The translations under genes and the position numbers were made by a program. This document shows, piece after piece, positions 2,346 through 14,891 of a stretch of DNA of 14,896 bases. Position 1 is the first letter of the stretch, and each line of letters opens with the position of its first letter. Below the pieces are notes generated by a model. That model did no database searches. It was not told the DNA's origin and saw nothing but the letters and a program-made list of their open reading frames with translations. Location: contig DATKZS010000113.1 of the NCBI GenBank assembly GCA_035527835.1, forward strand, positions 1 to 14,896, given 5' to 3'. The stretch is from DATKZS01 sp035527835 [NCBI: bacterium] (lineage in GTDB: Bacteria; RBG-13-61-14).

Positions 2346-2421
2346 TTAACAAGGATACGCAGGATTAACAGGATAATTGAAGAGCATTTCTTATCCTGTT
2401 AATCCTGTGTATCCTTGTTAA
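2346..2421. repeat. Inverted nonamer repeat (ATCCTGTTA family), copy 1
   Basis: The arms 2346-2376 and 2391-2421 are reverse complements over 31 bases with one G-T difference (a G-U pair in RNA); the loop is 14 bases. Each arm is itself built of similar units of about 9 bases (AGGATTAAC / ATCCTGTTA). The element occupies most of the lptB-rpoN gap, starting 28 bases after the lptB stop and ending 27 bases before the rpoN ATG. Related copies lie at 6521-6600 and 13957-14040. There is no T-run after the stem, so it is not a classical terminator. Confidence 0.9.
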
Positions 2422-2448
2422 TAATTCTTCTTTAATGACGGACGGATC

Positions 2449-3885
2449 ATGGCCATCGAACTCAGACAGAGCCTGAAACTGGCGCAGCAACTGGTGATGA
2501 CCCCCCAGTTGCAGCAGGCCATCAAGCTCCTCCAACTCTCCCGGCTCGAGCTCGCCGAGGCCATCAACCAGGAGATGCTGGAGAACCCGGTGCTCGAGGA
2601 ATTGCAGGAAGCGGACCTCGAACCCGAGCCCCTGGCACGCCACACCGACGAGGGAGAGGGCGAGAAGCCCAAGAACGCCGAAGACAGCTACGATGACCTC
2701 GACTGGGAAAAGTTCCTCGACGAGTTCGGCGAGGTCGAGTTCTCCGGCTTCCGCGCCACCGCCCGCAGCGAGGACGAGGAATTCCCCTCGGTGGAGGCCA
2801 CCCTGAGCCAGCCCGTCACCCTGGCCGACCACCTGCGCTGGCAGCTCAAGCTCGGCAACTTCTCGCTCGAGGAAGAGGCCATCAGCGACCTGATCATCGG
2901 CAACTTGAACGACGACGGCTACCTCACCGCCGACCTCGAGCTCATCACCCAGGAGTCCGGAGAGTCCGCCGAGCGCGTGCTCGAAGTCCTTAAAAAGGTC
3001 CAGAACCTGGACCCGGTCGGCATCGGCGCCCGCGACCTCAAAGAGTGCCTCCTGCTCCAGGTCCGCCAGTTCAGCGACGTGGACCCCCTGGTCATTGACG
3101 TCATCAACGACCACTTGGGCCGCCTCGAAAACAAGGACTACCGCGGCATCTCCCGCGCCCTCAAGGTGCCCGTGACCCGCGTCCGCGACGCCGTCATGTT
3201 CATCCAGGGCCTCGAGCCCAAGCCCGGACGGCCCTTCTCGCAGGACCGCGCCGAGTACATCACTCCCGACATCTACGTCTACAAGGTGGCCAGCGAGTTC
3301 ATCATCGTGCTCAACGAGGACGGCCTGCCCAAGCTCCGGGTGAGCCCGTATTACCGCCGCATCCTCAAGGAGAAGGGCAAGGACTTCGAGGTGACCAAGG
3401 ACTACATCCAGGACAAGCTCCGCTCCGCGGTCTGGCTGATCCGCAGCCTGCACCAGCGCCAGCGCACCATTTACCGCGTCATGGAATCCATTCTCGCCCG
3501 CCAGCGCGACTTCTTCGAGAAGGGCATCGGACATCTCAAGCCCATGGTGCTCCGCGACGTGGCCCAGGACATCCAGATGCACGAGTCCACCGTCTCCCGC
3601 GTCACCACCAACAAGTACGTGTACACGACGCAGGGCATCTTCCCCATGAAGTTCTTTTTCAACTCCAAGATCGGCACCGTGGAGGGAGGATCGGTCGCGG
3701 CCGAGTCGGTCAAGGACCGCATCAAGCAGCTCATCGCCAAGGAGGACCAGAGAAAACCGCTCTCCGACCAGGAGATCGTCGAGAAGCTCAGGGAATACGG
3801 AATCGAGATCGCCCGCCGCACCGTGACCAAGTACCGCGAGATGATGGGCATCCTGTCATCGTCCAAGCGCAAGCGGCTGGCTTGA
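2449..3885 (+). CDS. rpoN: RNA polymerase sigma-54 factor RpoN
   Basis: Sigma-54 directs core polymerase to -24/-12 promoters and needs an AAA+ activator to open them. The 478-residue product shows the full layout. Region I is Gln/Leu-rich (about 1-50, 'SLKLAQQLVMTPQLQQAIKL', then 'NPVLEE'). It is followed by an acidic region II (about 50-100), the core-binding region ('LAQ..DLDPVGIGARDLKECL') and the DNA-binding part. The helix-turn-helix lies in 'MHESTVSRVTTNKYV' (377-391), and the RpoN box is ARRTVTKYRE (455-464), matching the canonical ARRTVAKYRE at all but one position. The length equals the family norm. The ATG start follows a GGACGGA purine stretch. It precedes hpf by 54 bases, the classic rpoN-hpf-ptsN order. 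I found no convincing -24/-12 site in the window. Confidence 0.97.
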   Translation: MAIELRQSLKLAQQLVMTPQLQQAIKLLQLSRLELAEAINQEMLENPVLEELQEADLEPEPLARHTDEGEGEKPKNAEDSYDDLDWEKFLDEFGEVEFSGFRATARSEDEEFPSVEATLSQPVTLADHLRWQLKLGNFSLEEEAISDLIIGNLNDDGYLTADLELITQESGESAERVLEVLKKVQNLDPVGIGARDLKECLLLQVRQFSDVDPLVIDVINDHLGRLENKDYRGISRALKVPVTRVRDAVMFIQGLEPKPGRPFSQDRAEYITPDIYVYKVASEFIIVLNEDGLPKLRVSPYYRRILKEKGKDFEVTKDYIQDKLRSAVWLIRSLHQRQRTIYRVMESILARQRDFFEKGIGHLKPMVLRDVAQDIQMHESTVSRVTTNKYVYTTQGIFPMKFFFNSKIGTVEGGSVAAESVKDRIKQLIAKEDQRKPLSDQEIVEKLREYGIEIARRTVTKYREMMGILSSSKRKRLA

Positions 3886-3939
3886 TAATCAGAAATCAGG
3901 GAAGCGGCCCATTTTGAAAGACAGGAGGAAAGTAGTTAA

Positions 3940-4494
3940 ATGAAAGTGAACGTGACGTTCCGGCACATGGAGCCTGATGACGAGCTCAAGTCCTACGTGA
4001 CCGAAAAGGTGTTGAAGCTCGCGGAAAAATACCTGCACAAGCCCAATGAAGCGGTCGTGGTCCTGACCGCGGAAAAGTTCCGGCGCATCGCGGAGATAAC
4101 CATCAAGGCCGACAACACCGTGTTGACCGGCAAGGAGGAGACCGAGGACACCAGGGGCTCGATTGACCTGGCCCTGGACAAGCTGGAGATCCAGGCCCGG
4201 CGCCGGCGAACCCGCGTCAAGTCGCGCCAGAAAGGCGGGGCCGAGCAAGGCGGCGGCTTTGCCGTGTACCACGGCTCCGCCGAGCGCACCGAGGACGAGG
4301 ACTTCGTGCCGGGGGTGATCAAGGAGGACAAGTTCGTTCCCAAACCGATGACGGTGGAGGACTCGCTCATCGTGCTCGAGGATTCCGCCGACGATTTTCT
4401 GGTTTTCCGCAATGCGGAGACCTTCGGCATCTGCGTGGTCTACCGCCGCCCGGACGGCAATTACGGATTGATCGAGCCCGAGGCCCAGGGATGA
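3940..4494 (+). CDS. hpf: Ribosome hibernation promoting factor, long form (HPF)
   Basis: HPF binds the 30S decoding region in stationary phase; the long form dimerises 70S ribosomes into 100S particles on its own. The 184-residue product has the N-terminal S30AE/RaiA domain (about 1-98: 'KVNVTFRHMEPDDELKSYV', 'KLAEKYL', 'AEITIKADN', 'GSIDLALDKLEIQARRRR'), a basic Gly-rich linker, and the C-terminal dimerisation domain of long HPFs (123-182: 'VIKEDKFVPKPMTVEDSL', 'FLVFRNAE', 'VVYRRPDGNYGLIEP'). E. coli's short HPF (95 residues) lacks the second domain. The start has AGGAGG at 3923-3928 with an 11-base spacer. It lies between rpoN and ptsN, its usual position; older annotations call it a sigma-54 modulation protein. 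Confidence 0.96.
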   Translation: MKVNVTFRHMEPDDELKSYVTEKVLKLAEKYLHKPNEAVVVLTAEKFRRIAEITIKADNTVLTGKEETEDTRGSIDLALDKLEIQARRRRTRVKSRQKGGAEQGGGFAVYHGSAERTEDEDFVPGVIKEDKFVPKPMTVEDSLIVLEDSADDFLVFRNAETFGICVVYRRPDGNYGLIEPEAQG

Positions 4495-4540
4495 TGACCG
4501 CGCGGCCGGCTCATGACAAGACAAGGGACCGGGGTCTAAG

Positions 4541-4996
4541 TTGAAGATCAAGGAAATACTGCCCAAGAAGAACGTGATCGAGAGCATGCGGGCCAGGACC
4601 AGGGATGAGGCTGTCGCCGAGCTGGTGGACATCATCGCCGGACAGGTGCCTCTGGCCAGGGACAAGCTGGTGCGCATCCTGATCGAGAGGGAGGAACAGT
4701 CGCCAACCGCCATGACCGGAGGCGTCGCCGTACCCCACGGACGCATCAAGGAGCTCGACCGCTTCGTCCTCGCCCTGGGACGGAGCAAGGTCGGGGTCCC
4801 CTTCGGAGCCAAGGAGGGGCCCATCAAGATCTTTTTCCTGCTCATGGCCCCCACCGACGACACCGTCTCTCATCTCAAGATCCTCGCCCGCCTGGCAAGG
4901 ATGTGCAGAAACAGCGCCTTCCGCGACGACCTCCTGGCCGCCAAGAACGCGGACGAGCTCTTCGAGAGAGTGATGAAGGAGGACGAGGCCGTTTGA
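4541..4996 (+). CDS. ptsN: PTS EIIA-type 2 regulatory protein (PtsN / EIIA-Ntr)
   Basis: This is a phosphoacceptor of the nitrogen-type PTS: it takes phosphate from an HPr-like protein on a His and acts as a regulator rather than in sugar uptake. The 151-residue product is a single EIIA type-2 (fructose/Ntr) domain with the active-site His66 in GGVAVPHGRI. Conserved flanking sections are 'LVRILIEREEQSPTA', 'FGAKEGPIKIFFLLMAP' and 'HLKILARLARM'. The start must be TTG at 4541: an in-frame TGA lies at 4514-4516, with no ATG or GTG between it and the TTG, and downstream Met codons would cut into the domain. Only a weak purine site (GGGG) precedes it, so translation may be modest or coupled to hpf, 46 bases upstream. 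No EIIB or EIIC is attached. Confidence 0.93.
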   Translation: MKIKEILPKKNVIESMRARTRDEAVAELVDIIAGQVPLARDKLVRILIEREEQSPTAMTGGVAVPHGRIKELDRFVLALGRSKVGVPFGAKEGPIKIFFLLMAPTDDTVSHLKILARLARMCRNSAFRDDLLAAKNADELFERVMKEDEAV

Positions 4997-5033
4997 CCAT
5001 GCCTATCTCCGCGTGCGCGCTCCGGGAGCAAGG

Positions 5034-5126
5034 ATGAAGCGGCGCTTTGGCACTCGCGCCGGTTCCGGCCTTCCCCTTGATTGCCCCTTCCGCCGGGACG
5101 GAAGGGGACCGGGAGGACTGCCGTGA
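5034..5126 (+). CDS. Possible 30-residue leader peptide abutting hprK
   Basis: The ATG at 5034 is preceded by GGGAG (5024-5028) with a 5-base spacer. It opens 30 codons rich in Arg, Gly and Pro, beginning MKRRFGTRAGSG. The stop TGA (5124-5126) overlaps the hprK GTG start (5123-5125) in a GTGA arrangement, the geometry of translational coupling. The frame runs through the perfect hairpin at 5084-5107. I recognise no family. In GC-rich DNA a 30-codon frame is common by chance, so the case rests only on the ribosome site and the overlap. Confidence 0.22.
   Translation: MKRRFGTRAGSGLPLDCPFRRDGRGPGGLP
5084..5107 (+). promoter_or_regulatory. Perfect hairpin just upstream of the hprK ribosome site
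   Basis: CCCCTTCCG (5084-5092) pairs perfectly with CGGAAGGGG (5099-5107) around a 6-base loop. The stem ends only three bases before the GGGAGG Shine-Dalgarno (5111-5116) of hprK, so in mRNA it could limit ribosome access or stack next to it. No T-run follows, so intrinsic termination is unlikely. The hairpin lies inside the possible leader frame 5034-5126, so translation of that frame would unwind it. The structure is seen in the sequence; a regulatory role is inference. Confidence 0.45.
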
Positions 5127-6091
5127 ACCGCGTCAACGTGATTGAACTGGTGGATGACAAGGACTATCAGCTCGAGCTCATGGTGGTCTCCGGCGCCGAG
5201 TTCACCGACCGCGCCATCACCGACTCCTCCATCCACAAGCTGGGCCTGGCGCTGACCGGCATCCGCTTCTCCCTGAACCCCGGCCAGGTCCAGATCATGG
5301 GCGGGTCCGAGATCGCCTATCTCCAGATGCTCGCCCCGGATGAAAGGGACAGCGTCATCGCCAAGCTGGCCGAGTTCGATTTCCCATGCCTCATCGCCAC
5401 CCGCGGCATGACCCCGCACCCGGACCTGTGCCGAGCGCTGGGCGCCCGCCGCATCTCCTGCATGCGCTCCAGCCTGGACACCGCCGAGTTCATCCGCCGC
5501 GCCGACCGCTTCCTCGACGACCACCTCGCGCCCCGCATCAGCTTCCACGGAGTCCTGGTGGACGTCATCGGCATGGGCGTGCTCATCCTCGGACAGAGCG
5601 GGATCGGCAAGAGCGAGACCGCCCTCGACCTGGTCCTCAAAGGCCACCGCCTGGTCGCCGACGACATCGTGGACATCTACCGCCGGGGCAACGCATCCCT
5701 GGTCGGGAAATCCTCGGAGATGATCCAGTACCACATGGAGATCCGGGGCCTGGGCATCATCAACATCCAGGACCTCTATGGAATCTCCGCCACCCGCGAG
5801 CGCAAGAGGATTGACCTGGTCGTCGAGCTGGTGGAATGGGAAGAAGGCAAGGACTACGACCGCCTCGGCCTGGATGAGGAGACCTATCCCGTGTTGGGAC
5901 TTGAAATCCCGCACCTCACGGTCCCGGTGCGGCCGGGAAGGAACCTGAGCTCCATCATCGAGGTCGCCGCCAGAAACCAGTTGCTGAAGCAAAGAGGGCA
6001 CCATTCCGCCCGCGAATTCCAACAGCGGCTCCTGCAGGGCCTCACCGCCTCCGGCGAGGAATGCCCCGTCGCCGCTGACGAGGTTGAGTAA
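5123..6091 (+). CDS. hprK: HPr kinase/phosphorylase
   Basis: HprK/P phosphorylates HPr on its regulatory Ser and reverses the reaction by phosphorolysis, linking carbon status to PTS and other targets. The GTG at 5123 is chosen because GGGAGG at 5111-5116 sits 6 bases upstream; it gives 322 residues, close to the family's 310-330. A TTG at 5081 would add 14 residues through the hairpin and is unlikely. The N-terminal domain (about 1-130) is followed by the catalytic domain with His142 in SFHGVLVD, P-loop GQSGIGKS (157-164), the VADD acidic pair, and the family signature EIRGLGIINIQDLYG (206-220). The stop is two bases before the EIIA(Man) start. Its substrate HPr is encoded 0.5 kb downstream and keeps the target Ser. 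Confidence 0.96.
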   Translation: MNRVNVIELVDDKDYQLELMVVSGAEFTDRAITDSSIHKLGLALTGIRFSLNPGQVQIMGGSEIAYLQMLAPDERDSVIAKLAEFDFPCLIATRGMTPHPDLCRALGARRISCMRSSLDTAEFIRRADRFLDDHLAPRISFHGVLVDVIGMGVLILGQSGIGKSETALDLVLKGHRLVADDIVDIYRRGNASLVGKSSEMIQYHMEIRGLGIINIQDLYGISATRERKRIDLVVELVEWEEGKDYDRLGLDEETYPVLGLEIPHLTVPVRPGRNLSSIIEVAARNQLLKQRGHHSAREFQQRLLQGLTASGEECPVAADEVE

Positions 6092-6093
6092 TC

Positions 6094-6498
6094 ATGGTAG
6101 GTGTGGTCATCGTAACTCACGGCAATCTCGCCCGCGACCTGGTCGAAATCACCGAGCTGATCGTCGGACCCTGTCCCAACCTCATCCCCGTATCCATCGC
6201 GCCGGACGAGGGCATCGCCGAGATCGCCAAGAAGGTCGAGTCCGCCATCAGGACCGCGGACAAGGGAAGCGGAGCGCTCATCCTCACCGACCTCTTCGGC
6301 GGCACGCCATCCAACGTCAGCCTCTCCTTCCTCCAGGAGAACAAGGTCGAGGTGCTGTCCGGCGTCAACCTGCCCATGGTCATCAAGATCGCCACCCACG
6401 GCGAAAACTCCGACGTCAAGGAGCTGGCAAGGCTCGCCCGAACCGCCGGCAAGAAAAACATCTCCCTGGCCTCCGAGATCATGAGGAAAAAAGTGTGA
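6094..6498 (+). CDS. PTS EIIA component, mannose/fructose family
   Basis: This is a single-domain EIIA of the mannose (ManX/PtsL) superfamily, unrelated in fold to PtsN. It takes phosphate from phospho-HPr on His9 (VGVVIVTHG). The second family motif TDLFGGTPSN (65-74, with conserved Asp66) is intact, followed by 'VLSGVNLPMVIKIA'. At 134 residues it is a stand-alone EIIA; no IIB, IIC or IID gene follows in this window. It starts 2 bases after hprK, implying co-translation. Isolated EIIA(Man) genes beside hprK, ptsH and ptsI are, from memory, common in Desulfobacterota, where a regulatory rather than transport role is often assumed; that role is an inference here. Confidence 0.93.
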   Translation: MVGVVIVTHGNLARDLVEITELIVGPCPNLIPVSIAPDEGIAEIAKKVESAIRTADKGSGALILTDLFGGTPSNVSLSFLQENKVEVLSGVNLPMVIKIATHGENSDVKELARLARTAGKKNISLASEIMRKKV

Positions 6499-6520
6499 GC
6501 GCCGCCCTGAAATTTTAAAA

Positions 6521-6600
6521 GACGGGATTAACAGGATTGACAGGATGAAAAGAAACAAAAGGCGTATTCCGAAAATCCTGTAAATCCTGTTAATCCTGTC
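6521..6600. repeat. Inverted nonamer repeat (ATCCTGTTA family), copy 2
   Basis: The arms 6521-6546 and 6575-6600 are complementary at 24 of 26 positions, one of the two exceptions being a G-T, around a 28-base loop. The right arm is three tandem ATCCTGTTA-like units. It fills the gap between EIIA(Man) (stop 6498) and ptsH, ending 22 bases before the ptsH ATG and just upstream of its GGAAGGAA ribosome site. The right arm differs from that of the 13957-14040 copy at only one base. Confidence 0.9.
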
Positions 6601-6622
6601 CGAGAATTCTCCGGGAAGGAAA

Positions 6623-6898
6623 ATGAACGTGATCGAGAGAGAAGTCAAGATCGTCAATCGGCTGGGAATGCACGCCCGGGCCGCCGGCCATTTCCGCCGC
6701 ACCGCCGCGGGTTTCAAGGCGAATATTGACGTGATCCGCGAGGGCATGACCGCCAACGCCAAGAGCCTCTTGGGCCTCATGGCCCTGGAGGCCGCGCAGG
6801 GAACGAAAATCGTGATCCGCGCCAAGGGCGATGACGCCGAGGCGGCGGTCGCCGCCCTGGCCGCGCTCGTCGCCGGCCGCTTCGGAGAGAACGAATAA
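6623..6898 (+). CDS. ptsH: HPr, phosphocarrier protein of the PTS
   Basis: HPr relays phosphate from Enzyme I to the EIIA proteins. The 91-residue product has the active-site His17 in LGMHARAAG and the HprK target Ser48 in NAKSLLGLMAL, equivalent to Ser46 of Bacillus HPr. The usual Pro after HAR is Ala here. The Ser motif together with hprK in the same cluster makes serine control likely. GGAAGGAA lies just before the ATG. It is followed after about 90 bases by ptsI, with a heptad inverted repeat in between. The length is normal for HPr. Confidence 0.96.
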   Translation: MNVIEREVKIVNRLGMHARAAGHFRRTAAGFKANIDVIREGMTANAKSLLGLMALEAAQGTKIVIRAKGDDAEAAVAALAALVAGRFGENE

Positions 6899-6900
6899 GG

Positions 6901-6975
6901 CCTGGGGCGTGGGGCGTGAGGCTTGAGGAAGGTGATCGGTCTTCCTCAAGCCCCAAGCCTTAAGGCCTCAAGCCC
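6901..6975. repeat. Inverted heptad repeat (CCYCARG family) between ptsH and ptsI
   Basis: A perfect 12-base inverted pair, 6920-6931 and 6941-6952 (GGCTTGAGGAAG / CTTCCTCAAGCC), closes a 9-base loop. The stem extends imperfectly through GGGGCGTG-type bases on the left and CCCCAAGCC on the right. A 10-base palindrome GCCTTAAGGC (6957-6966) follows. The element begins two bases after the ptsH stop and runs into the weak ribosome site of ptsI. It is the same family as 8839-9029 and 13-40. No T-run follows the stem. Confidence 0.85.
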
Positions 6976-6986
6976 GGGTGCTTAGA

Positions 6987-8798
6987 ATGGCAAACGACAC
7001 ACATGACGAGCAAAAGAGCTTGAAGGGAAGCGGCGTTTCCGAGGGCATCGCCATCGGCAAGGCCATCATCATCGAGCGCGAGCGCATCAGCATTCCCCAC
7101 CGCATGATCGGGACGGCGGAGGCCGGGGAAGAGGTCGCGCGCCTGCGCGAGTCCCTGGAAAAGGCCAAGCAGGGACTTCTGGCCATCAAGCAGGGCCTGT
7201 CCTCGGCCGCATCCCACGAGCCCGCCTTCATCATTGACGCGCACCTCATGATGCTCGAGGACGACATGCTGGTGGAGGGCGCCATCGCCATCATCCGCGA
7301 GCGCGGCATCAACGCCGAATGGGCGCTGCGCATCAAGGTCGCCGAGCTGGTCGCCGTGTTCTCGCGCATGAGCGACCCCTACCTCCGCGAGCGCGGCCGC
7401 GACGTCGAGGAGGTCGCGGAACGAGTGGTGCGCGAGCTGGTGGGAAAAAAGGACAGTCCGCTCGCCCGCATTGACGAGCCCGTGATCGTGGTCGCACACG
7501 AGCTCTCCCCCGCCGAGACCGCACACATGGCCGTGGACCGCGTCCTCGGATTCGCCACCGACATCGGAAGCCAGACCTCACACGCCGCCATCGTCGCCAA
7601 GTCCCTGCGCATCCCCGCCGTGGTCGGGCTCAAGACCATAACCGCCAGCGCCGCCCACGGCGACACCATCCTCATTGACGGCCAGGCCGGAATCGTCATC
7701 TTGAACCCCTCGACCCAGACCGTCCGCGACTACGAGGACAAAAGAAAGCGCATCGCCGAAATGCGCGTCGCCCTCCAGGAATACCGCGGACTCGAATCCG
7801 AGACCCTCGACCACGCCAAGATCAAGCTCGCCGCCAACCTCGAAATCATGGAGGAGATCGCATTCTACGAGGAGAGCGGCGCCGAGGGCGTCGGACTCTA
7901 CCGCACCGAGTACCTCTACCTCGACCGCGACGACCTCCCCAGCGAGGACGAGCACTTCGAGGGATACAAAAAGCTCGCCCGGGCCAGCGGCGCGCACGGC
8001 GCCACCATCCGCACCCTCGACCTCGGCGGCGACAAGTTCAAGAGCACACTGTCGCTCTCCGACGAGCTCAACCCCGCGATGGGACTCCGCGCCATCCGGC
8101 TCTGCCTCAACCGCCCCGACTTGTTCAAGACCCAGTTGCGGGCTATATTGAGGGCCAGCGCCTTCGGCAAGGCCCGCATCATGTTCCCCATGATCTCCGG
8201 GTTCCAGGAGTTCCGCGACGCCAAGCGCCTCCTCCACGAGGCCGCCGCCGAGCTGGACAAAGAAGGCGTGGCCTTCGACCGCGCCCTCGAGCTCGGAATC
8301 ATGATCGAGGTCCCCTCCGCCGCCTTCATCGCCGCGGAGCTGGCCGAGGCCGCCGACTTCTTCTCCATCGGCACCAATGACTTGATCCAGTATACCCTGG
8401 CGATTGACCGGATCAACGAGAACGTGAGCTACTTGTATCAGCCGCTCCACCCCGCCATTCTCCGCATCGTCAGCGCGGTGGTGAAGGCCGGACACGAAAA
8501 AGGGATACCGGTGCACATGTGCGGCGCCATGGCCGCGGAACCAGCATACCTGCCCGTGCTCATCGGGCTCGGACTCGACGAGCTCTCCATGCCCATGGCC
8601 AACGTCCTGCGCATCCGCAAGGTCATGCGCGGGATCAGGAAGGCGGAGGCCGAGGAGCTGGTGCGAGAGCTCTTCACCTACAAGACCGCGCAGGAAATTA
8701 AGGAAAGGGTCAAGCGCGAGATCAGGTCCCGCTGGGCCGAGGCATACGCCCTCGAGCGCGAAGTGTTCGAGGACGAGGACCTGCCGCCGGTGGGATGA
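6987..8798 (+). CDS. ptsI: PTS Enzyme I, phosphoenolpyruvate-protein phosphotransferase
   Basis: Enzyme I autophosphorylates from PEP and passes the phosphate to HPr. The 603-residue product is slightly longer than E. coli EI (575). The N-terminal phospho-His domain carries His199 in GSQTSHAAIVA. The PEP-binding barrel shows GLYRTEYLYL (Arg306), TLDLGGDKF, NPAMGLRAIRLC, MFPMISGF, IMIEVPSAAF and FSIGTNDLIQYTLAIDR, with the catalytic Cys512 in VHMCGAMAAEP. ATG 6987 is preferred, with GGGTG 7 bases upstream; GTG 6978, three codons earlier in frame, is possible. The N-terminus 'GSGVSEGIAIGKA' is standard. Both flanks are heptad inverted repeats. It lacks the GAF domain of the nitrogen-type EI (PtsP), so this one EI presumably serves both ptsN and the EIIA(Man). 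Confidence 0.97.
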   Translation: MANDTHDEQKSLKGSGVSEGIAIGKAIIIERERISIPHRMIGTAEAGEEVARLRESLEKAKQGLLAIKQGLSSAASHEPAFIIDAHLMMLEDDMLVEGAIAIIRERGINAEWALRIKVAELVAVFSRMSDPYLRERGRDVEEVAERVVRELVGKKDSPLARIDEPVIVVAHELSPAETAHMAVDRVLGFATDIGSQTSHAAIVAKSLRIPAVVGLKTITASAAHGDTILIDGQAGIVILNPSTQTVRDYEDKRKRIAEMRVALQEYRGLESETLDHAKIKLAANLEIMEEIAFYEESGAEGVGLYRTEYLYLDRDDLPSEDEHFEGYKKLARASGAHGATIRTLDLGGDKFKSTLSLSDELNPAMGLRAIRLCLNRPDLFKTQLRAILRASAFGKARIMFPMISGFQEFRDAKRLLHEAAAELDKEGVAFDRALELGIMIEVPSAAFIAAELAEAADFFSIGTNDLIQYTLAIDRINENVSYLYQPLHPAILRIVSAVVKAGHEKGIPVHMCGAMAAEPAYLPVLIGLGLDELSMPMANVLRIRKVMRGIRKAEAEELVRELFTYKTAQEIKERVKREIRSRWAEAYALEREVFEDEDLPPVG

Positions 8799-8838
8799 TA
8801 CCATGGGATCGAATGGGGGGCGGAACGGAAGGGATTGT

Positions 8839-9029
8839 GGCTTGAGGCATGAGGCTTGGGGCTTGAGCAGTGGGGTAATTCGGCCCCAACCCTCAAGCCC
8901 CAACCCTCAAGCCCCAAGCCTCAAGCCCCAAGCAAGCCCCAGGCCCCAAGCCTCAGGCCCCAAGCCCCAGGCCCCAAGCCTCAGGCCTCAAGCCCCAGGC
9001 CCCAAGCCCCAAGCCTCATGCCTCAAGCC
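8839..9029. repeat. Large inverted element with heptad tandem array (CCYCARG)n
   Basis: The arms 8839-8865 and 9003-9029 are perfect 27-base reverse complements. Between them (8866-9002) lies a short unique stretch and then an array of about 17 degenerate heptads (CCCCAAG, CCTCAAG, CCTCAGG, CCCCAGG). The left part of the array itself can pair with the left arm, so alternative foldings exist. The element occupies most of the 279-base ptsI-metK gap and ends 48 bases before the metK ATG. An open frame runs through it into metK, but it only translates the repeat into a Pro/Gln/Ser/Lys string. The unit length of 7 suggests slippage-prone, probably variable copy number. Confidence 0.92.
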
Positions 9030-9077
9030 CTGTCAATGGCGTCTAAATGGCATGAATTAAATTATAGGAGGAAGCTA

Positions 9078-10271
9078 ATGTTCAAGAAAGACTATCTGTT
9101 CACGTCCGAGTCCGTGACCGAGGGGCATCCCGACAAGGTGGCGGACAAGGTCTCCGACTCCGTGCTCGACGCGCTCCTGGAAAAGGACAAGTACTCGAGG
9201 GTCGCCTGCGAAACGCTGGTCACCACCGGCATGGCCATCATCGCCGGCGAGATCACCTCCGCCGGACTCTTGCAAGTGGACCTGCCACGGGTCGTCCGCG
9301 ACGCCGTCCGCGAGATCGGTTACACCGACACCGACATGGGATTCGACGCCGATACCTGCGCCGTGCTCGTGTCCCTCGACCGCCAGTCCCCCGACATCGC
9401 CCAAGGCGTGGACGTAAAGCCCAACAAGGACCAGGGAGCCGGCGACCAGGGAATGATGTTCGGGTTCGCCTGCGACGAGACCCCGGAGCTCATGCCCGCG
9501 CCCATATTCTACGCCCACCGCCTCACCCAGCGACTGGCCCAGGCCCGCAAGACCAAAAAGCTCCCCTTCCTCCGGCCCGACGGCAAGAGCCAGGTCACCA
9601 TCCGCTACGAGAACGGCAAGCCCAAGGCCGTAACCACCGTGGTCATCGCCTGCCAGCACTCGCCGGAGGTCAAGAATAAGACGCTGCACGACGCCGTGAT
9701 CGAGGAGGTCATCAAAAAGACCATCCCGGCCAAGCTGCTCAATAAAAACACCCGCTACGTGATCAACGCCACCGGCAAGTTCGTGATCGGCGGGCCCCAC
9801 GGAGACTGCGGGCTCACCGGCCGCAAGATCATCGTGGACACCTACGGCGGCATGGGCCGCCACGGCGGAGGCGCATTCTCCGGCAAGGACCCCTCCAAGG
9901 TGGACCGCAGCGGAGCGTACATGGCCCGCCACATCGCCAAGAACGTCGTGGCCGCGGGAATCGCCCGTACCTGCGAGGTCCAGATCGCCTACGCCATCGG
10001 CGTGGCCCGGCCCCTGGCAGTGGACGTCAACATCTACTCCTACGGAACCAACACCATGCCCGAGGAGGAGATTGCCAAGATGGTCATCAAGCACTTCGAC
10101 CTCCGGCCCCGCGCCATCATCGAGTATCTCGACCTGCTCCGGCCCATCTACAGAAAGACCGCCGCCTACGGCCACTTCGGCCGAAAGGACCCGGACTTCA
10201 CCTGGGAGAGCACCCACATGGCCAAGAAGCTCGCGGACGAGGCAAAAAAATATCAGCGCCGCGGTAAGTAG
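9078..10271 (+). CDS. metK: S-adenosylmethionine synthetase
   Basis: MetK makes SAM from methionine and ATP. The 397-residue product is full length with all signatures: SVTEGHPDK (12-20, His17), [12 protein letters not shown] (120-131), [13 protein letters not shown] (238-250), and [16 protein letters not shown] (263-278), the metal/ATP loop. The start at ATG 9078 is fixed by AGGAGG at 9066-9071 with a 6-base spacer and by the family N-terminus ('[11 protein letters not shown]'). The same frame is open upstream through the heptad array, which could mislead a gene caller into adding 74 residues. The ahcY gene follows 103 bases downstream, so the two form an activated-methyl-cycle pair. I see no SAM riboswitch in the leader, which is mostly repeat. 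Confidence 0.98.
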
Positions 10272-10282
10272 GATGCCTATCC

Positions 10283-10304
10283 AGCCCTGAAAGGGCGAAA
10301 TAAA
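10283..10304. repeat. REP-like single unit (GCCCTGAAAGGGC)
   Basis: A short hairpin GCCCT-GAA-AGGGC (10284-10296) is followed by GAAATAAA. The 22-base unit is repeated at 13883-13904 with two substitutions, and its core recurs exactly at 13804-13816. It lies 11 bases after the metK stop. There is no T-run, so it is not a canonical terminator. The rest of the metK-ahcY gap (10305-10374) is AT-rich, with the ahcY ribosome site AAGGAG at 10360-10365 and no convincing promoter. Confidence 0.7.
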
Positions 10305-10374
10305 AACTTTCCGTCAATTGCTGAACCGGGCATGACCTGAAAATTTAATTATTTCGTGAAAGGAGTCAATGTAA

Positions 10375-11631
<1,257 letters not shown>

Positions 11632-11640
11632 AGAAAATAG

Positions 11641-11749
11641 TAGATAGTAGGTGGTAGATAGTAGATAGGGAGAAAAGGCGGCGCCTCCAGACAGGGAAGC
11701 ACGCATCTCTATCATTATCCCTACATGCTATCTACTATCTACTACCTAC
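11641..11749. repeat. Inverted TAGATAGTA/CTATCTACT element before tkt
   Basis: The arms 11647-11668 and 11728-11749 match as reverse complements at 21 of 22 positions; the one exception is a G-T. Each arm consists of imperfect repeats of GTAGATA / TATCTAC. The 59-base interval contains a GGCGCC palindrome and nothing coding. The element spans nearly the whole ahcY-tkt gap and ends 7 bases before the AAGGAGG ribosome site of tkt. It is AT-rich compared with its surroundings and unrelated in sequence to the other repeat families here. Confidence 0.88.
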
Positions 11750-11767
11750 CCCTCTAAGGAGGCTACA

Positions 11768-13768
11768 GTGGACTGGAACCAGGAAGCAGTGAACAGGGCC
11801 GCGGCCGCGGTGCGCATCATCTCCGCCGAGGCCGTCGAGAAGGCCAAGTCCGGCCATCCCGGAATGCCCATGGGCATGGCCGACGCCGCGCTGGTGTTAT
11901 GGGCGCGCCATCTCCGCTTCAATCCCGCGCACCCGGCATGGCCCGACCGCGACCGCTTCATCCTCTCCGCCGGACACGGCTCCATGCTCCTCTATATGCT
12001 GCTCCACCTCTTCGGCTTCGGGCTCACCATGGAGGACATCCGGGATTTCCGCCAGTGGGGATCCAAGACCCCGGGCCATCCCGAGCACGGAATCACCCCC
12101 GGAGTCGAGACCACCACCGGCCCGCTCGGCCAGGGCTTCGCCAACGGAGTGGGAATGGCGCTCGCCGCGAAGATCATGGCCGCCCGCGTCAATACCCCGA
12201 AGTTCCCGGTGCTCTCCCACCGCGTCACTGCCATCGTCTCCGACGGCGACATCATGGAAGGCGTGGCCTCCGAGGCCGCCTCCCTTGCCGGGCACCTCGG
12301 CCTCGGCAACATCGTCTATCTGTACGACGACAACGACATTACCATCGAGGGCGCGCGCGGCCTCTCATTCTCCGAGGACACCGCCCGCCGCTTCGAGGCC
12401 TATGGCTGGCACGTGCAAAAGGCCGACGGCCTCGACCGCGCCGCCATGGACCAGGCCATCGCCAACGCCTATCAGGAAACCTCGCGGCCCAGCATCATCA
12501 TCGCCAGGACCACCATCGGCTTCGGATGCCCCACCAAGGCCGGCACCGCCGACACCCACGGCGCCCCCGTCGGACCCGATGAGATCGCCGGCGCGCGCCA
12601 GTGCCTCCACTGGGACCTGCCCGAGTTCACCGTCCCCGCCGAGGCCTACGCCTTCTGCCACGACGCCGTGAAGCCAAAGCTCGACGCATTCGAGCAATGG
12701 GAGCGGATGCTCCAGGCATTCTCCAAAGAAGAGCCGGAGCGCGCCAAGATCTTCGAGGCCATGCAAAAAGGCGACCTGCCCCGGGACCTCGAACAAAAAG
12801 TCATGGCCGCGCTCGACGTTAAGCCCGTCGCCACCCGCAGGGCCTCCGGCGCCGTCCTCCAGGCCCTCGCCAAGGAGCTGCCCCTGCTCATCGGAGGCTC
12901 CGCCGACCTCGCGCCCTCCAACAACACCATGATCAAGGGCGCCAAGTCCATCAGCAAACAAGACTTCTCCGGCCGTAACCTCCACTTCGGCATCCGCGAG
13001 CACGGAATGGCCGGCCTCATGAACGGCATGGCGCTTTACGGCCTTGTCCCCTACGGCGGGACTTTCCTCGTCTTCAGCGATTACATGCGGCCCTCCATAC
13101 GCCTCGCCGCCCTCATGGGCCTCCGCGTAATCTACGTGTTCACGCACGACAGCATCTTCGTCGGCGAGGACGGGCCCACCCACCAGCCGGTCGAGCAGGT
13201 GGCCGCGCTCCGCGTCATCCCGAACCTCCACGTCATCCGGCCGGCCGACGCCGCCGAGACCGCAATGGCATGGATGCAGGCCGTCGCCAGGAAGGACGGA
13301 CCCACCGCCCTCATCCTCTCGCGCCAGACTCTGCCCGCCATTGACCGCGCCAAGTACGGCCCGGCCTCCGGCCTCGACCAGGGCGCCTATACCCTGGGCG
13401 GCGACGTGGCCCCCGACCTCCTCATCATGGCCAGCGGCTCCGAGGTCGGAGTGGCGATCGAGGTGTTCGAGGAATTGCGGGCGGCCGGAGTGAAGGCCCG
13501 CGTCATCAGCATGCCCTGCTTCGAGAAATTCGAGGCGCAGGACAAGGATTACCGCGAAGAGGTCCTGCCCAGCTCATGCGCCCGCCGCGTGGCCATCGAG
13601 GCCGGAGTCTCCATGGGATGGCACAAGTACACCGGACTCGCGGGCCTCGTCATCGGCATGGACCGCTTCGGCGCATCCGCGCCCTACAAGGTCCTCGCCG
13701 AAAAATTCGGATTCAACCAGCAGGCCGTGATGGAGATGATCAAGTGTACGTATCCTGAGCTCTTCTAG
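11768..13768 (+). CDS. tkt: Transketolase
   Basis: Transketolase moves two-carbon units between sugar phosphates in the non-oxidative pentose phosphate pathway, using thiamine diphosphate and Mg2+. The 666-residue product is a full-length single-chain enzyme: the TPP-binding half has GHGSMLLY (His70) and SDGDIMEGV (Asp159-Asp161 region) with [10 protein letters not shown]. The pyrimidine-binding half has [21 protein letters not shown] with the catalytic Glu411, and [19 protein letters not shown] (459-477, including His472). A C-terminal transketolase domain completes it. GTG at 11768 is set by AAGGAGG at 11756-11762 with a 5-base spacer. Its products feed ribose, and indirectly arabinose-5-phosphate for Kdo, whose phosphatase gene kdsC comes next, although no direct operon link is shown across the repeat-filled 300-base gap. 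Confidence 0.98.
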
Positions 13769-13802
13769 TGCATCGCCTGGATTCGTTCGGCTTTTTTTCT
13801 TT

Positions 13803-13904
13803 AGCCCTGAAAGGGCGATAAGATAGCCCAGGGTTGGCCGTCTTCGGCCTACCCTGGGATATCGGTGCCCAATATCCTTTTAAGCCCTGAAGAGGCGAAA
13901 TAAA
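13803..13904. repeat. REP-like composite: direct repeats around a strong hairpin
   Basis: The unit AGCCCTGAAAGGGCG (13803-13817) and its near copy at 13883-13897 lie in direct orientation about 80 bases apart. Between them is a strong stem: CCCAGGGT (13827-13834) pairs with ACCCTGGG (13851-13858), and GGCCG (13836-13840) with CGGCC (13845-13849), around a TCTT loop with one T-T mismatch. A second small stem GGATAT / ATATCC (13857-13862, 13872-13877) overlaps the base. The first unit's core recurs in the metK-ahcY gap. The design is reminiscent of REP/BIME-type elements mobilised by Y1 (RAYT) transposases; none is encoded in the window. A T7 run at about 13791-13797 just upstream lacks a good preceding stem. 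Confidence 0.75.
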
Positions 13905-13956
13905 GGCAGGCCACATCGGTGGGCACTGCGTCATGGACCCGAACAGAAATTTTTCA

Positions 13957-14040
13957 GACAGGATCAACAGGATTAACGGGATGGAGGATGAAAATAATCA
14001 AGCGCTTCTCGAATATCCTGTAAATCCTGTTAATCCCGTC
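13957..14040. repeat. Inverted nonamer repeat (ATCCTGTTA family), copy 3
   Basis: The arms 13957-13982 and 14015-14040 are complementary at 22 of 26 positions (one further G-T). The right arm is nearly identical to that of copy 2, while the left arm has diverged more. It ends 28 bases before the kdsC ATG. With the REP-like element it fills the 300-base gap between tkt and kdsC; the rest of that gap (13769-13802, 13905-13956) shows nothing I can assign. Confidence 0.85.
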
Positions 14041-14068
14041 AAAAAATATCTGAAGTCGTGAGTTGTTC

Positions 14069-14596
14069 ATGGACCAGAAAATCCTCGATAAGGCCTCCCG
14101 TATCACCATGCTCATCCTCGACGTGGACGGCGTGATGACCGACGGCTCCCTCTATTACAGCGCCGAGGGCGAGGCCATCAAGATGTTCAACGTGAAGGAC
14201 GGCGCCGCCATCAAGTGGCTGCAGCGCGCCGGCATCGAGATCGCCGTCATCACCGGCCGCCAAAGCCCCCAGACCCAGGCCCGCGCCGACGAGCTCGGCA
14301 TCAAGACCGTGATCCAGGGCGCGTTCAAGAAACTGCCCGTGTTTCTGGAGTTCCTCAAAACCTCCGGAGTGCCCGCCGGCCAGGTCGCTTACATGGGCGA
14401 CGACTACCACGACCTGCCGTTATTGAGGAGAGTGGGACTCAGCATGGCGCCCGCCGACGCCATTGACGAGGTGAAGAAAATCGTGGACTGGATCGCATCC
14501 GTACCCGGCGGACGAGGCGCCGTCCGCGAAGCCGCCGAGCTCATCCTCAAAGCCCGCGGCCAATGGGAAGAGATCAGCAAGCCCTATTATGAATAG
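14069..14596 (+). CDS. kdsC: 3-deoxy-D-manno-octulosonate 8-phosphate phosphatase
   Basis: KdsC dephosphorylates Kdo-8-P to Kdo, the sugar that links lipid A to the LPS core. The 175-residue product is a capless (C0) HAD phosphatase: motif I LDVDGVMTDG (nucleophile Asp18, acid/base Asp20), motif II ITGR (Thr62), motif III Lys in AFKKLP (about Lys88), motif IV GDDYHDLPLL (110-119, Asp111, Asp112, Asp115). 'GVMTDG' and the compact size are typical of KdsC rather than of other HAD enzymes. ATG 14069 follows GTGAG by 6 bases; TTG 14063 is an in-frame alternative. kdsC often sits directly before lptC; here it is about 12 kb downstream of lptB, on the same strand, behind tkt. Confidence 0.95.
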   Translation: MDQKILDKASRITMLILDVDGVMTDGSLYYSAEGEAIKMFNVKDGAAIKWLQRAGIEIAVITGRQSPQTQARADELGIKTVIQGAFKKLPVFLEFLKTSGVPAGQVAYMGDDYHDLPLLRRVGLSMAPADAIDEVKKIVDWIASVPGGRGAVREAAELILKARGQWEEISKPYYE

Positions 14597-14685
14597 CCTC
14601 TAGCGCAGGATACTGGAACTGGTTTCATAACCCTCGGAACTATCTCCCATAAGAAAACACTCTTGTCCAAAATAGGCCGTAAGAA

Positions 14686-14891
14686 AACCGCCAAGACGCC
14701 AAGAGCGCCAAGGATCGCCAAGTAAATCATGATGTTTCTTTGAGGCCCGGCAAAAAACAGCTCCGGAGCGTTGGCCCCAACCGGCTTGGCGAACCGGCCG
14801 ACGGGAGCGCCAAGCAAGAAACATTCGCACCCAAGCCCTCTTAAAATCGTGTTTAAAAATAATCCTTGGCGCTCTTGGCGTCTTGGCGGTT
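14686..14891. repeat. Nested inverted element with perfect 30-base arms (TCTTGGCGY family)
   Basis: The arms 14686-14715 and 14862-14891 are exact reverse complements over 30 bases, built of units of 8-9 bases (GCCAAGACG / TCTTGGCGT). Inside, a second perfect pair ATGTTTCTT / AAGAAACAT (14732-14740, 14816-14824) encloses a GC-rich core with the palindrome GCTCCGGAGC (14760-14769). It occupies most of the 300 bases after kdsC; 14597-14685 shows nothing assignable. Minus-strand frames of 76 codons across it only translate the repeat (a Leu/Ala/Gly/Val string), so I do not call a gene. A following gene probably begins just past the window end. Confidence 0.9.

Follow-up and report, generated by a model that had tools for sequence, protein, structure and literature searches.

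Tandem-armed inverted hairpins of several unit families fill intergenic gaps at a bacterial locus and may be lineage-specific small insertions

The window, by which we mean the whole stretch of DNA analyzed (14,896 nucleotides; positions 1 to 14,896 of contig DATKZS010000113.1), carries lptB, rpoN, an EIIA-type gene, the gene for HPr, ptsI, metK, ahcY, tkt, and kdsC. Seven tandem-armed hairpins occupy intergenic gaps at this locus, each made of a few tandem units of 7-9 bases and their inverted copy. All seven were located where the initial annotation had put them. HprK matches of 41-62%, and of 53% at best across most of the protein in one further phylum, did not tie the window to a known phylum.

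2346..2421, no strand assigned: nonamer hairpin in the lptB-rpoN gap; arms 2346-2376 and 2391-2421 (31 nt, 97%), loop 14
6521..6600, no strand assigned: nonamer hairpin in the gap between the EIIA-type gene and HPr; arms 6521-6546 and 6575-6600 (26 nt, 92%), loop 28
6901..6975, no strand assigned: heptad hairpin of the GGCTTGA type in the HPr-ptsI gap; core arms 6913-6931 and 6941-6959
8831..9029, no strand assigned: heptad element in the ptsI-metK gap; left arm 8831-8875, right-side array 8884-9029
11639..11750, no strand assigned: heptad hairpin TAGATAG / CTATCTA in the ahcY-tkt gap; core arms 11647-11668 and 11728-11749 (22 nt, 95%), loop 59
13957..14040, no strand assigned: nonamer hairpin in the tkt-kdsC gap; arms 13957-13982 and 14015-14040 (26 nt, 85%), loop 32
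14686..14891, no strand assigned: CGCCAAG 8/9-mer hairpin beyond kdsC; arms 14686-14715 and 14862-14891 (30 nt, 100%), loop 146

The fold of the HPr-ptsI hairpin lengthens the pairing outward beyond its core arms, and the long right array of the ptsI-metK element allows several registers. The ahcY-tkt element had initially been assigned to a family of its own, CTATCTACT; its tandem inverted design stood, but the supposed family is a CTATCTA heptad array (period 7, 87%), and the window thus holds three nonamer elements, three heptad elements, and one element of mixed 8/9 spacing. The arms of the nonamer elements at 6521 and 13957 are 92% identical between the elements and 88% within them (mean, n = 2), and the two appear to have diverged from a single element. 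The nonamer element at 2346 is further from both (69%).

A strict inverted-repeat scan (arms of at least 18 nt, at least 85% identity) recovered six of the seven elements (2346, 6521, 6913, 8831, 11647, and 14686), with the one at 13957 just under the cut (81% over 32 nt; 85% over 26 nt). Matched random sequence, which had been named as a possible source of similar counts, did not produce them: 30 dinucleotide shuffles of the window gave one stem in total and none with tandem arms. The arm period match was below 0.65 in two of the six scanned elements, 2346 (0.64) and 14686 (0.55), the latter because its CGCCAAG units are spaced by 8 and then by 9. When the six leaders other than 14686 were folded as RNA, with 8829-8930 taken for the 8831 element, each scored better than 200/200 shuffles (z from -3.5 to -11.2), and in transcripts the elements would fold as stable intercistronic hairpins. 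The Rfam search of the window returned microRNA models of the kind that match long hairpins of any sort, an Acido-Lenti-1 match below threshold, and a weak IRES model, none at the gathering score.

The initial annotation had the right arms ending shortly before start codons, and for the six elements with a gene downstream they do so, at 27, 22, 11, 48, 17, and 28 nt. The role of marking the start was not borne out. The left arms of the same six begin 28, 22, 2, 32, 7, and 188 nt past the preceding stop, and the window elements occupy the whole gap rather than marking the start. Among 71 same-direction gaps, with start positions taken from a simple purpose-made gene caller, the element was closer to the upstream stop in 50 and to the start in 20, a count on which start-codon placement as the rule was rejected. 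On the deposited annotation of Thiodictyon, a hand count found eight tandem-armed elements in same-direction gaps, six closer to the stop and two to the start, and in the Desulfobacterota alone the median distance was 94.5 to the facing start and 67 to the facing stop. Because a start preference is absent, a common function as 5'-leader hairpins is not indicated.

The observation that unrelated unit families share one architecture holds both in the window and in other genomes. Desulfobacterota, plasmids of Gemmatirosa and Thiodictyon, and certain viral contigs carry the tandem-armed design in many unit families, and elements built of 8-, 9-, and 11-mers have the same design as the heptad pairs. 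Preference for intergenic positions beyond the window was clear in one sample and not in another: among 46 tandem-armed inverted pairs found across 800 kb of Desulfobacterota loci, 44 lay between genes though 74% of the sequence codes, whereas on the Gemmatirosa plasmid an intergenic position was assigned to only 18 of 34 tandem-armed stems, which counts against the explanation we favor below. In the viral contigs, an inverted partner accompanied the array at 7/41 sites, some of them duplicated between contigs. Co-occurrence of the window's own families across 80 Desulfobacterota genomes is weak (the 8-mer in 4, the CAAGCC heptad in 5, the CTATCTA heptad in 4).

The families have a further property in common, a G-rich 5' arm, which is supported by the counts although it was noticed post hoc and the families may be non-independent. 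Of the 33 families of intergenic elements, 29 had more G than C in the 5' arm, three had the opposite, and one was tied (p = 2.6e-6); with coding places included, the split was 38 vs 11 of 49 families. Inverted repeats without tandem arms, a control not confined to intergenic places, had no polarity (30 vs 31).

Dispersal was seen most directly in the GTTTCTTTAG family, which has 27 copies in 417 kb of genome G338, in stretches picked mostly for containing it, and two partial matches in 823 kb of its sister G355. Its core lengths are 73, 82, 91, or 109 in 19 of 25 copies, a 9-step spacing. In the families of G338 and in those of genome G094, the loops were copied along with the arms. In the G094 family, which comes from another genus, the nonamer pair lies inside a MITE with 17-bp terminal repeats and a 9-bp target duplication; at one locus of this nonamer-carrying MITE, genome G130 has the empty site, and at one G094 locus a clean empty site was not obtained because the gap had been remodeled. 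The initial annotation had proposed template switching or slippage as a common generating process. Slippage does account for the change in unit number in one family, but since that family was copied as a unit and a nonamer pair sits inside a MITE, neither is enough alone. Whole-element copying does not fit every family either, because outside the clearly dispersed families the loops of members resemble one another roughly as much as shuffled loops do. Arm identity was higher within than between elements in the two pairs of the window, in a single viral family, and in one or two pairs from Gemmatirosa; homogenization of the arms by conversion was considered and rejected, as in the larger families within-element arm identity did not exceed the best between-element identity. 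Our search for an enzyme mobilizing tandem-armed hairpins found none.

Comparison of orthologous gaps in sister genomes, as had been suggested for these elements, showed the hairpins to be lineage specific, and this turnover is demonstrated only in lineages other than that of the window. Over 110 kb aligned at 94.5% identity between G338 and G355, 8440 of 11,340 intergenic bases (74%) align, and none of eight intergenic tandem-armed hairpins (0/8) lies in aligned sequence. Of 32 breakpoint gaps, six carry arrays in G338 and G355 alike; the units differ in all six (6/6), the longest common exact string is 9 nt, and tandem-armed hairpins are present in both genomes in just one of the six. In 13 of the 32, neither genome has a detected array or hairpin, and the tandem-armed elements are therefore only part of the intergenic turnover. 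A third relative, G354, likewise lacks the element, by eye, at the one gap that was readable in it. The sisters of G099 were too distant for such a comparison.

We favor, at a probability of roughly 55%, lineage-specific bursts of small foldback-type hairpins that undergo slippage in their arms and are tolerated between genes. On this view each element would be a short inserted hairpin that codes for nothing, a "foldback" repeat in miniature; its loop would be flanked by arms built from a few 6-11-nt units in tandem, each arm the inverted copy of the other. A new hairpin would be born in one lineage, burst-copied into many intergenic sites, and altered by slippage that adds or removes arm units, two steps for which the GTTTCTTTAG family is the evidence, and it would be gone again in close relatives. 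Survival would be largely confined to intergenic gaps, which would let unrelated families converge on one design and placement. The mover is probably a transposition-like or foldback-copying activity, the window's own elements presumably have the same origin, and any effect on expression would be a by-product. A sequence that is lineage specific and a design that is constant suggest fast-turning-over small insertions, the window elements included.

An unlikely but substantial alternative is de novo local generation, in which 7-9-mer arrays arise through slippage of the polymerase and are inverted by foldback template switching, with no mobile element and little or no spread. It would explain why direct arrays without an inverted partner are common (18/27 intergenic arrays), why most copies differ in their loop and arms vary in unit number, and why private unit variants are mirrored across both arms of one Gemmatirosa element (36/36 nt) and of the window's 2346 element (30/31 nt); likewise, a perfect 21-nt inverted repeat sits in one G355 gap, with a right arm similar to the flank in G338. 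Chance slippage would not be expected, however, to place the consensus units GACAGGATTAACAGG and ACCGCCAAGACGCCAAG or near variants in different phyla and in viral contigs, and the joint copying of arms and loops in G338 and G094 speaks against local generation, as does the finding that in the larger dispersed families arms are not closer to each other within an element than between elements. REPINs are dispersed, intergenic elements made of a short inverted pair and a loop. An origin as REPINs or REP-like elements mobilized by a RAYT (Y1_Tnp) transposase would fit the intergenic position, two inverted arms, and variable loop, and Y1_Tnp genes are common (26/32 of the same genomes), yet we consider it very improbable. 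Compared with that system (PMC3116915), the arms here are tandem units, and no RAYT flanking was seen: searching PF01797 in 32 genomes gave 40 Y1_Tnp stretches, of which none showed, by eye, the same unit arrayed on each side of the gene (short two-unit arms could escape such inspection), two had a stem passing the tandem cut, and five had direct arrays somewhere. Nor do match counts track the elements (20 nonamers and four matches in G099; three and 17 in G184).

Equally remote is the view that these are ordinary MITEs of DDE transposons that carry tandem units in their interior by chance. The G094 carrier, with its terminal repeats, target-site duplication, and empty site at one locus, is just that, but the pooled stand-alone elements had no excess of duplication at the arm ends (direct repeats of at least 6 nt in 7/61, against 7.2% of control pairs). 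Somewhat less improbable, though still improbable, are selected regulatory hairpins or regulator sites, in which a protein that recognizes DNA or RNA would bind the paired inverted arrays and control the neighbors. The strong intergenic hairpins predicted by RNA folding agree with this, as do published accounts that interpret paired arrays in Geobacter metallireducens as sites for global regulators (PMC2700814) and give the TAACTGA arrays of Beggiatoaceae a translational role (PMC4679880). Against it, all eight hairpins examined (8/8) turned over between the 94.5% identical genomes, the same site can hold different unit families, and start preference is absent.

For the favored reading, bursts of foldback-type hairpins, an analogy in design comes from eukaryotes. 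Foldback transposons there have inverted arms of short tandem repeats and a variable loop, and so do the elements here; target duplication shows no excess at the arm ends, the arms are tens of bases long, the host is bacterial, and no transposase was identified. Tm1 (PMC3169594) and Tetris (PMC4079207) are examples. A broader claim, possible but doubtful, is that a widespread bacterial activity makes or moves 6-11-mer-armed hairpins of fixed polarity, with the G-rich arm 5', and little regard to sequence, rewriting gaps so fast that 94.5%-identical genomes hold different unit families at one and the same site; this would be a bacterial counterpart of foldback elements. Intergenic gaps in several sampled genomes are rich in tandem-armed hairpins, and if one process makes them, it would supply spacers to operons and hairpins to mRNAs in a general and rapid way, and it could unite the heptamer and octamer repeats reported from Xanthomonas, Geobacter, Beggiatoaceae, and Nostoc. 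Pairs of element-rich genomes would then be predicted to hold lineage-specific families at orthologous gaps, G-rich arm first. Our literature searches found no description of such a many-family class, an absence that is not proof, and the unit strings matched nothing relevant.

Several published repeats are nonetheless comparable. According to the accounts of them, archaeal Borgs have tandem repeat regions for which rapid evolution and independent origin are claimed, direct repeats in giant extrachromosomal elements, where the elements here are inverted (PMC9879509), and Beggiatoaceae TAACTGA repeats form intergenic heptamer arrays common to distant lineages (PMC4679880). Xanthomonas and Geobacter repeats are related, as published relatives of the elements described here. 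Classes 1-3 of Geobacter metallireducens are multicopy tandem 7-8-mer arrays, with several families per genome, mostly paired on opposite strands at variable distance, as in our elements; they have other units and are read as possible IHF/HU sites, and the text on these sites describes no sister-genome turnover (PMC2700814). The Xanthomonas GGGAATC repeats are tandem 7-mers, 89-93% intergenic, lying on average 28 nt from the preceding ORF vs 160 nt from the next, with 70 and 75 convergent pairs termed inverted repeats (PMC4692102). As presented there, they are a single unit family, discussed as a G-quadruplex and generally without mobile-element association, whereas many families occur here. 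The window's three heptad elements are intergenic inverted heptamer pairs of this Xanthomonas type.

The seven inverted-arm elements described in the window (starting at 2346, 6521, 6901, 8831, 11641, 13957, and 14686) proved to be real: an inverted-repeat scan requiring arms of at least 18 nt and at least 85% identity recovered six of them, and the arms of the seventh are 81 to 85% identical. Thirty dinucleotide shuffles of the window yielded one stem in total and none with tandem arms, in which each arm is built of a few tandem short units and the arms are inverted copies around a loop. RNA folding was tried for six leaders, and each folded better than all 200 of its own shuffles. The element at 11641 is built of heptads rather than nonamers. 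The initial annotation also placed the elements close before start codons. The distances are indeed short, but this placement mostly reflects how the elements fill their gaps, because in five of six elements the distance to the upstream stop codon is of about the same order.

The same design recurs in Desulfobacterota. The nonamer core GGATTAACAGGAT was found in 55 of 297 genomes (62, 23, and 20 occurrences in the three richest), compared to six matches of its reversed control across all 297, and frequently formed inverted pairs with differing interiors. A sequence-independent scan of the fetched loci (800 kb, 74% coding) detected 46 tandem-armed pairs, 44 of them intergenic, with periods of 9 (31 pairs), 7 (12), 8 (two), and 6 (one), period 9 being inflated because many loci had been picked for carrying nonamers. 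The intergenic bias by itself is not special, as inverted repeats without tandem arms in this set were also mostly intergenic (38 of 47). Direct arrays with periods of 5 to 12 (n = 36) comprised 29 sevens, six nines, and one eight; nine of 27 intergenic direct arrays had an inverted partner within 250 nt versus two of 24 in a control pairing arrays with the flanks of other arrays. In one genome (G099), the heptad CCGAACY is an abundant family itself, and the reversed control of the heptad search matched 129 times.

The tandem-armed design also occurs outside MAGs. In the plasmid sequence read (500 kb from Gemmatirosa kalamazoonensis and 200 kb from Thiodictyon syntrophicum), families were built of 9-mers (ACGCAGAGG, ACAGGATGA), an 11-mer (GACTGAAGAAG), and 8-, 7-, 10-, and 6-mers, the longest arms reaching 56 nt at 98% identity. 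BLAST matches were weak (E of 0.003 to 0.2), and these elements are identified by architecture rather than by E-value. Of the 34 tandem-armed stems on the Gemmatirosa plasmid, 18 were classed as intergenic, and several of those assigned to coding sequence resemble GC-rich stems arising by chance; stems of all kinds numbered 59 versus five in one block shuffle. Nearly all the convincing tandem-armed hairpins lay in three of its ten 50-kb segments (L307 to L309 versus L310 to L316), with one more in L312. Spirosoma yielded a perfect nonamer pair of 27 nt and Nostoc one arm alone, while in viral contigs an inverted partner was present at seven of 41 array sites, some of which are one sequence present in two contigs. 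The array in Nostoc sp. UHCC 0926 (L284, 2960-3053) is a case of nesting, a single CGCCAAGA array sitting between the arms of a different inverted repeat, TTAGGACTTACGCA. By eye, single GACAGGATTAACAGGATT arrays in viral contigs (L245, L246, and L249) adjoin arrays of other families (CGCGGAGAG and CGCGGATGAA types) as composites.

Polarity and placement are the two properties that unify the tandem-armed families. The polarity was noticed post hoc, with families counted as separate when they shared fewer than three 8-mers. Among 97 intergenic tandem-armed elements, G exceeded C in the 5′ arm in 29 of 33 families and fell below it in three (p = 2.6e-6), and the 5′ arm was the purine-richer in 26 families versus four, the GTTTCTTTAG family being a clear exception. 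Polarity was 38 versus 11 once coding places were added (49 families), and 30 versus 31 (n = 67) in control inverted repeats without tandem arms, coding and intergenic places pooled. As for placement, the proposed preference for start codons was contradicted in 71 same-direction gaps, where the element was closer to the upstream stop in 50 and to the start in 20 (medians of 28 and 35 nt). Divergent gaps made up six of 89 gaps with elements versus 153 of 1094 without. Median gap length was 191 nt with the element, 90 nt once it was removed, and 129 nt in gaps without elements.

Turnover was followed between two sister genomes, G338 and G355, which are 94.5% identical over the 110 kb compared. 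Although 8440 of 11,340 intergenic bases of G338 aligned to G355, none of its eight intergenic tandem-armed hairpins did (five of the GTTTCTTTAG family and three of others); direct intergenic arrays aligned in four of 10 cases. The G338 stretches had been picked mostly for carrying the GTTTCTTTAG family, absence from G355 being no criterion. In the reverse direction, one of two intergenic tandem-armed hairpins of G355 was unaligned and one partly aligned, and a single one within a called gene aligned to G338. Across 32 breakpoint gaps, arrays or hairpins were present in 17 in G338, in eight in G355, in six in both, and in 13 in neither. The units differed at all six doubly occupied gaps, with shared exact strings of at most 9 nt; both genomes carried tandem-armed hairpins at only one, and at the other five a direct array was present in one genome or both. 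Two of the six lie within stretches called coding by our own gene caller. That so few of these gaps carry tandem-armed hairpins in both genomes slightly lowers the standing of a widespread activity that makes or moves hairpins largely irrespective of sequence, which we consider unlikely.

The most likely explanation is that hairpins with tandem-unit arms arise and are then copied in bursts that differ by lineage. In the G338 stretches the GTTTCTTTAG family numbers 27 copies, compared with two partial matches in twice as much G355 sequence; its copies retain the loop, and in 19 of 25 the core measures 73, 82, 91, or 109 nt, in steps of 9. In another genus (G094), a nonamer pair lies within a MITE of about 123 bp with 17-bp terminal repeats:

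L212, 13674-13797, and L239: MITE carrying the nonamer pair, 17-bp ends CAGCAATTCTAATTTTG, 9-bp target duplication

Copies are many in G094 and few among the matches listed in its sister G130. One locus shows an empty site in G130 and the 9-bp duplication with the MITE in G094. Ordinary transposition, carrying the hairpin along as cargo, is therefore at least one of the ways in which these elements spread. At a second locus the MITE is missing from the sisters, but the gap is remodeled. The main rival, purely local slippage and foldback, would account for a perfect 21-nt inverted repeat in one G355 gap, whose right arm is similar to the G338 flank, as would be the outcome of local foldback copying. 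No target duplication of the MITE kind was found at stand-alone elements, and Y1_Tnp genes, although frequent, were flanked by arrays in none of the stretches inspected. Both processes may act in turn, local foldback making a seed that copying spreads. Under copying in bursts, unit numbers would drift through slippage, and elements would survive where they are least harmful, in gaps after stop codons; in transcripts they would fold into stable hairpins between cistrons, which could undergo processing or shield the RNA. By eye, G057 carries, relative to G094 (L240 and L235), a 233-bp insertion with a GCGATTAGCA 10-mer array beside a CGCAGATT inverted pair.

Related repeats are described in three reports: Xanthomonas GGGAATC heptamers, with 70 and 75 convergent inverted pairs, 89 to 93% intergenic and closer to the preceding ORF (PMC4692102); tandem 7-8-mers of Geobacter metallireducens, which form several families, are paired on opposite strands, and have been interpreted as regulator sites (PMC2700814); and Beggiatoaceae TAACTGA arrays positioned before starts (PMC4679880). 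To these, our analysis adds that many families share the design within one replicon, that it is found in several phyla, that the arms have a polarity, and that orthologous gaps turn over with different units.

The window itself is a same-direction housekeeping cluster (lptC, lptA, lptB, rpoN, hpf, ptsN, hprK, an EIIA-type PTS gene, HPr, ptsI, metK, ahcY, tkt, and kdsC). An NCBIfam scan covered 10 of its 14 proteins, and ptsN and the EIIA-type gene score under the curated cut-offs of their best models; rpoN, hprK, ptsI, and metK are what we take these genes to be from the window sequence. Relatives share part of the rpoN, hprK, ptsI, and metK order, and the 44 HprK relatives found (41 to 62% identity) belong mostly to Deltaproteobacteria and Myxococcota. 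In the tkt-kdsC gap, upstream of the nonamer hairpin, a sub-threshold match to Acido-Lenti-1 RNA (32.3 bits; gathering 37) lies at 13803-13858 on the minus strand. More of the intergenic space, at 10276-10304, 13796-13824, and 13876-13904, is taken up by a further dispersed repeat whose core is AGCCCTGAAAGGGCGA or closely similar to it.
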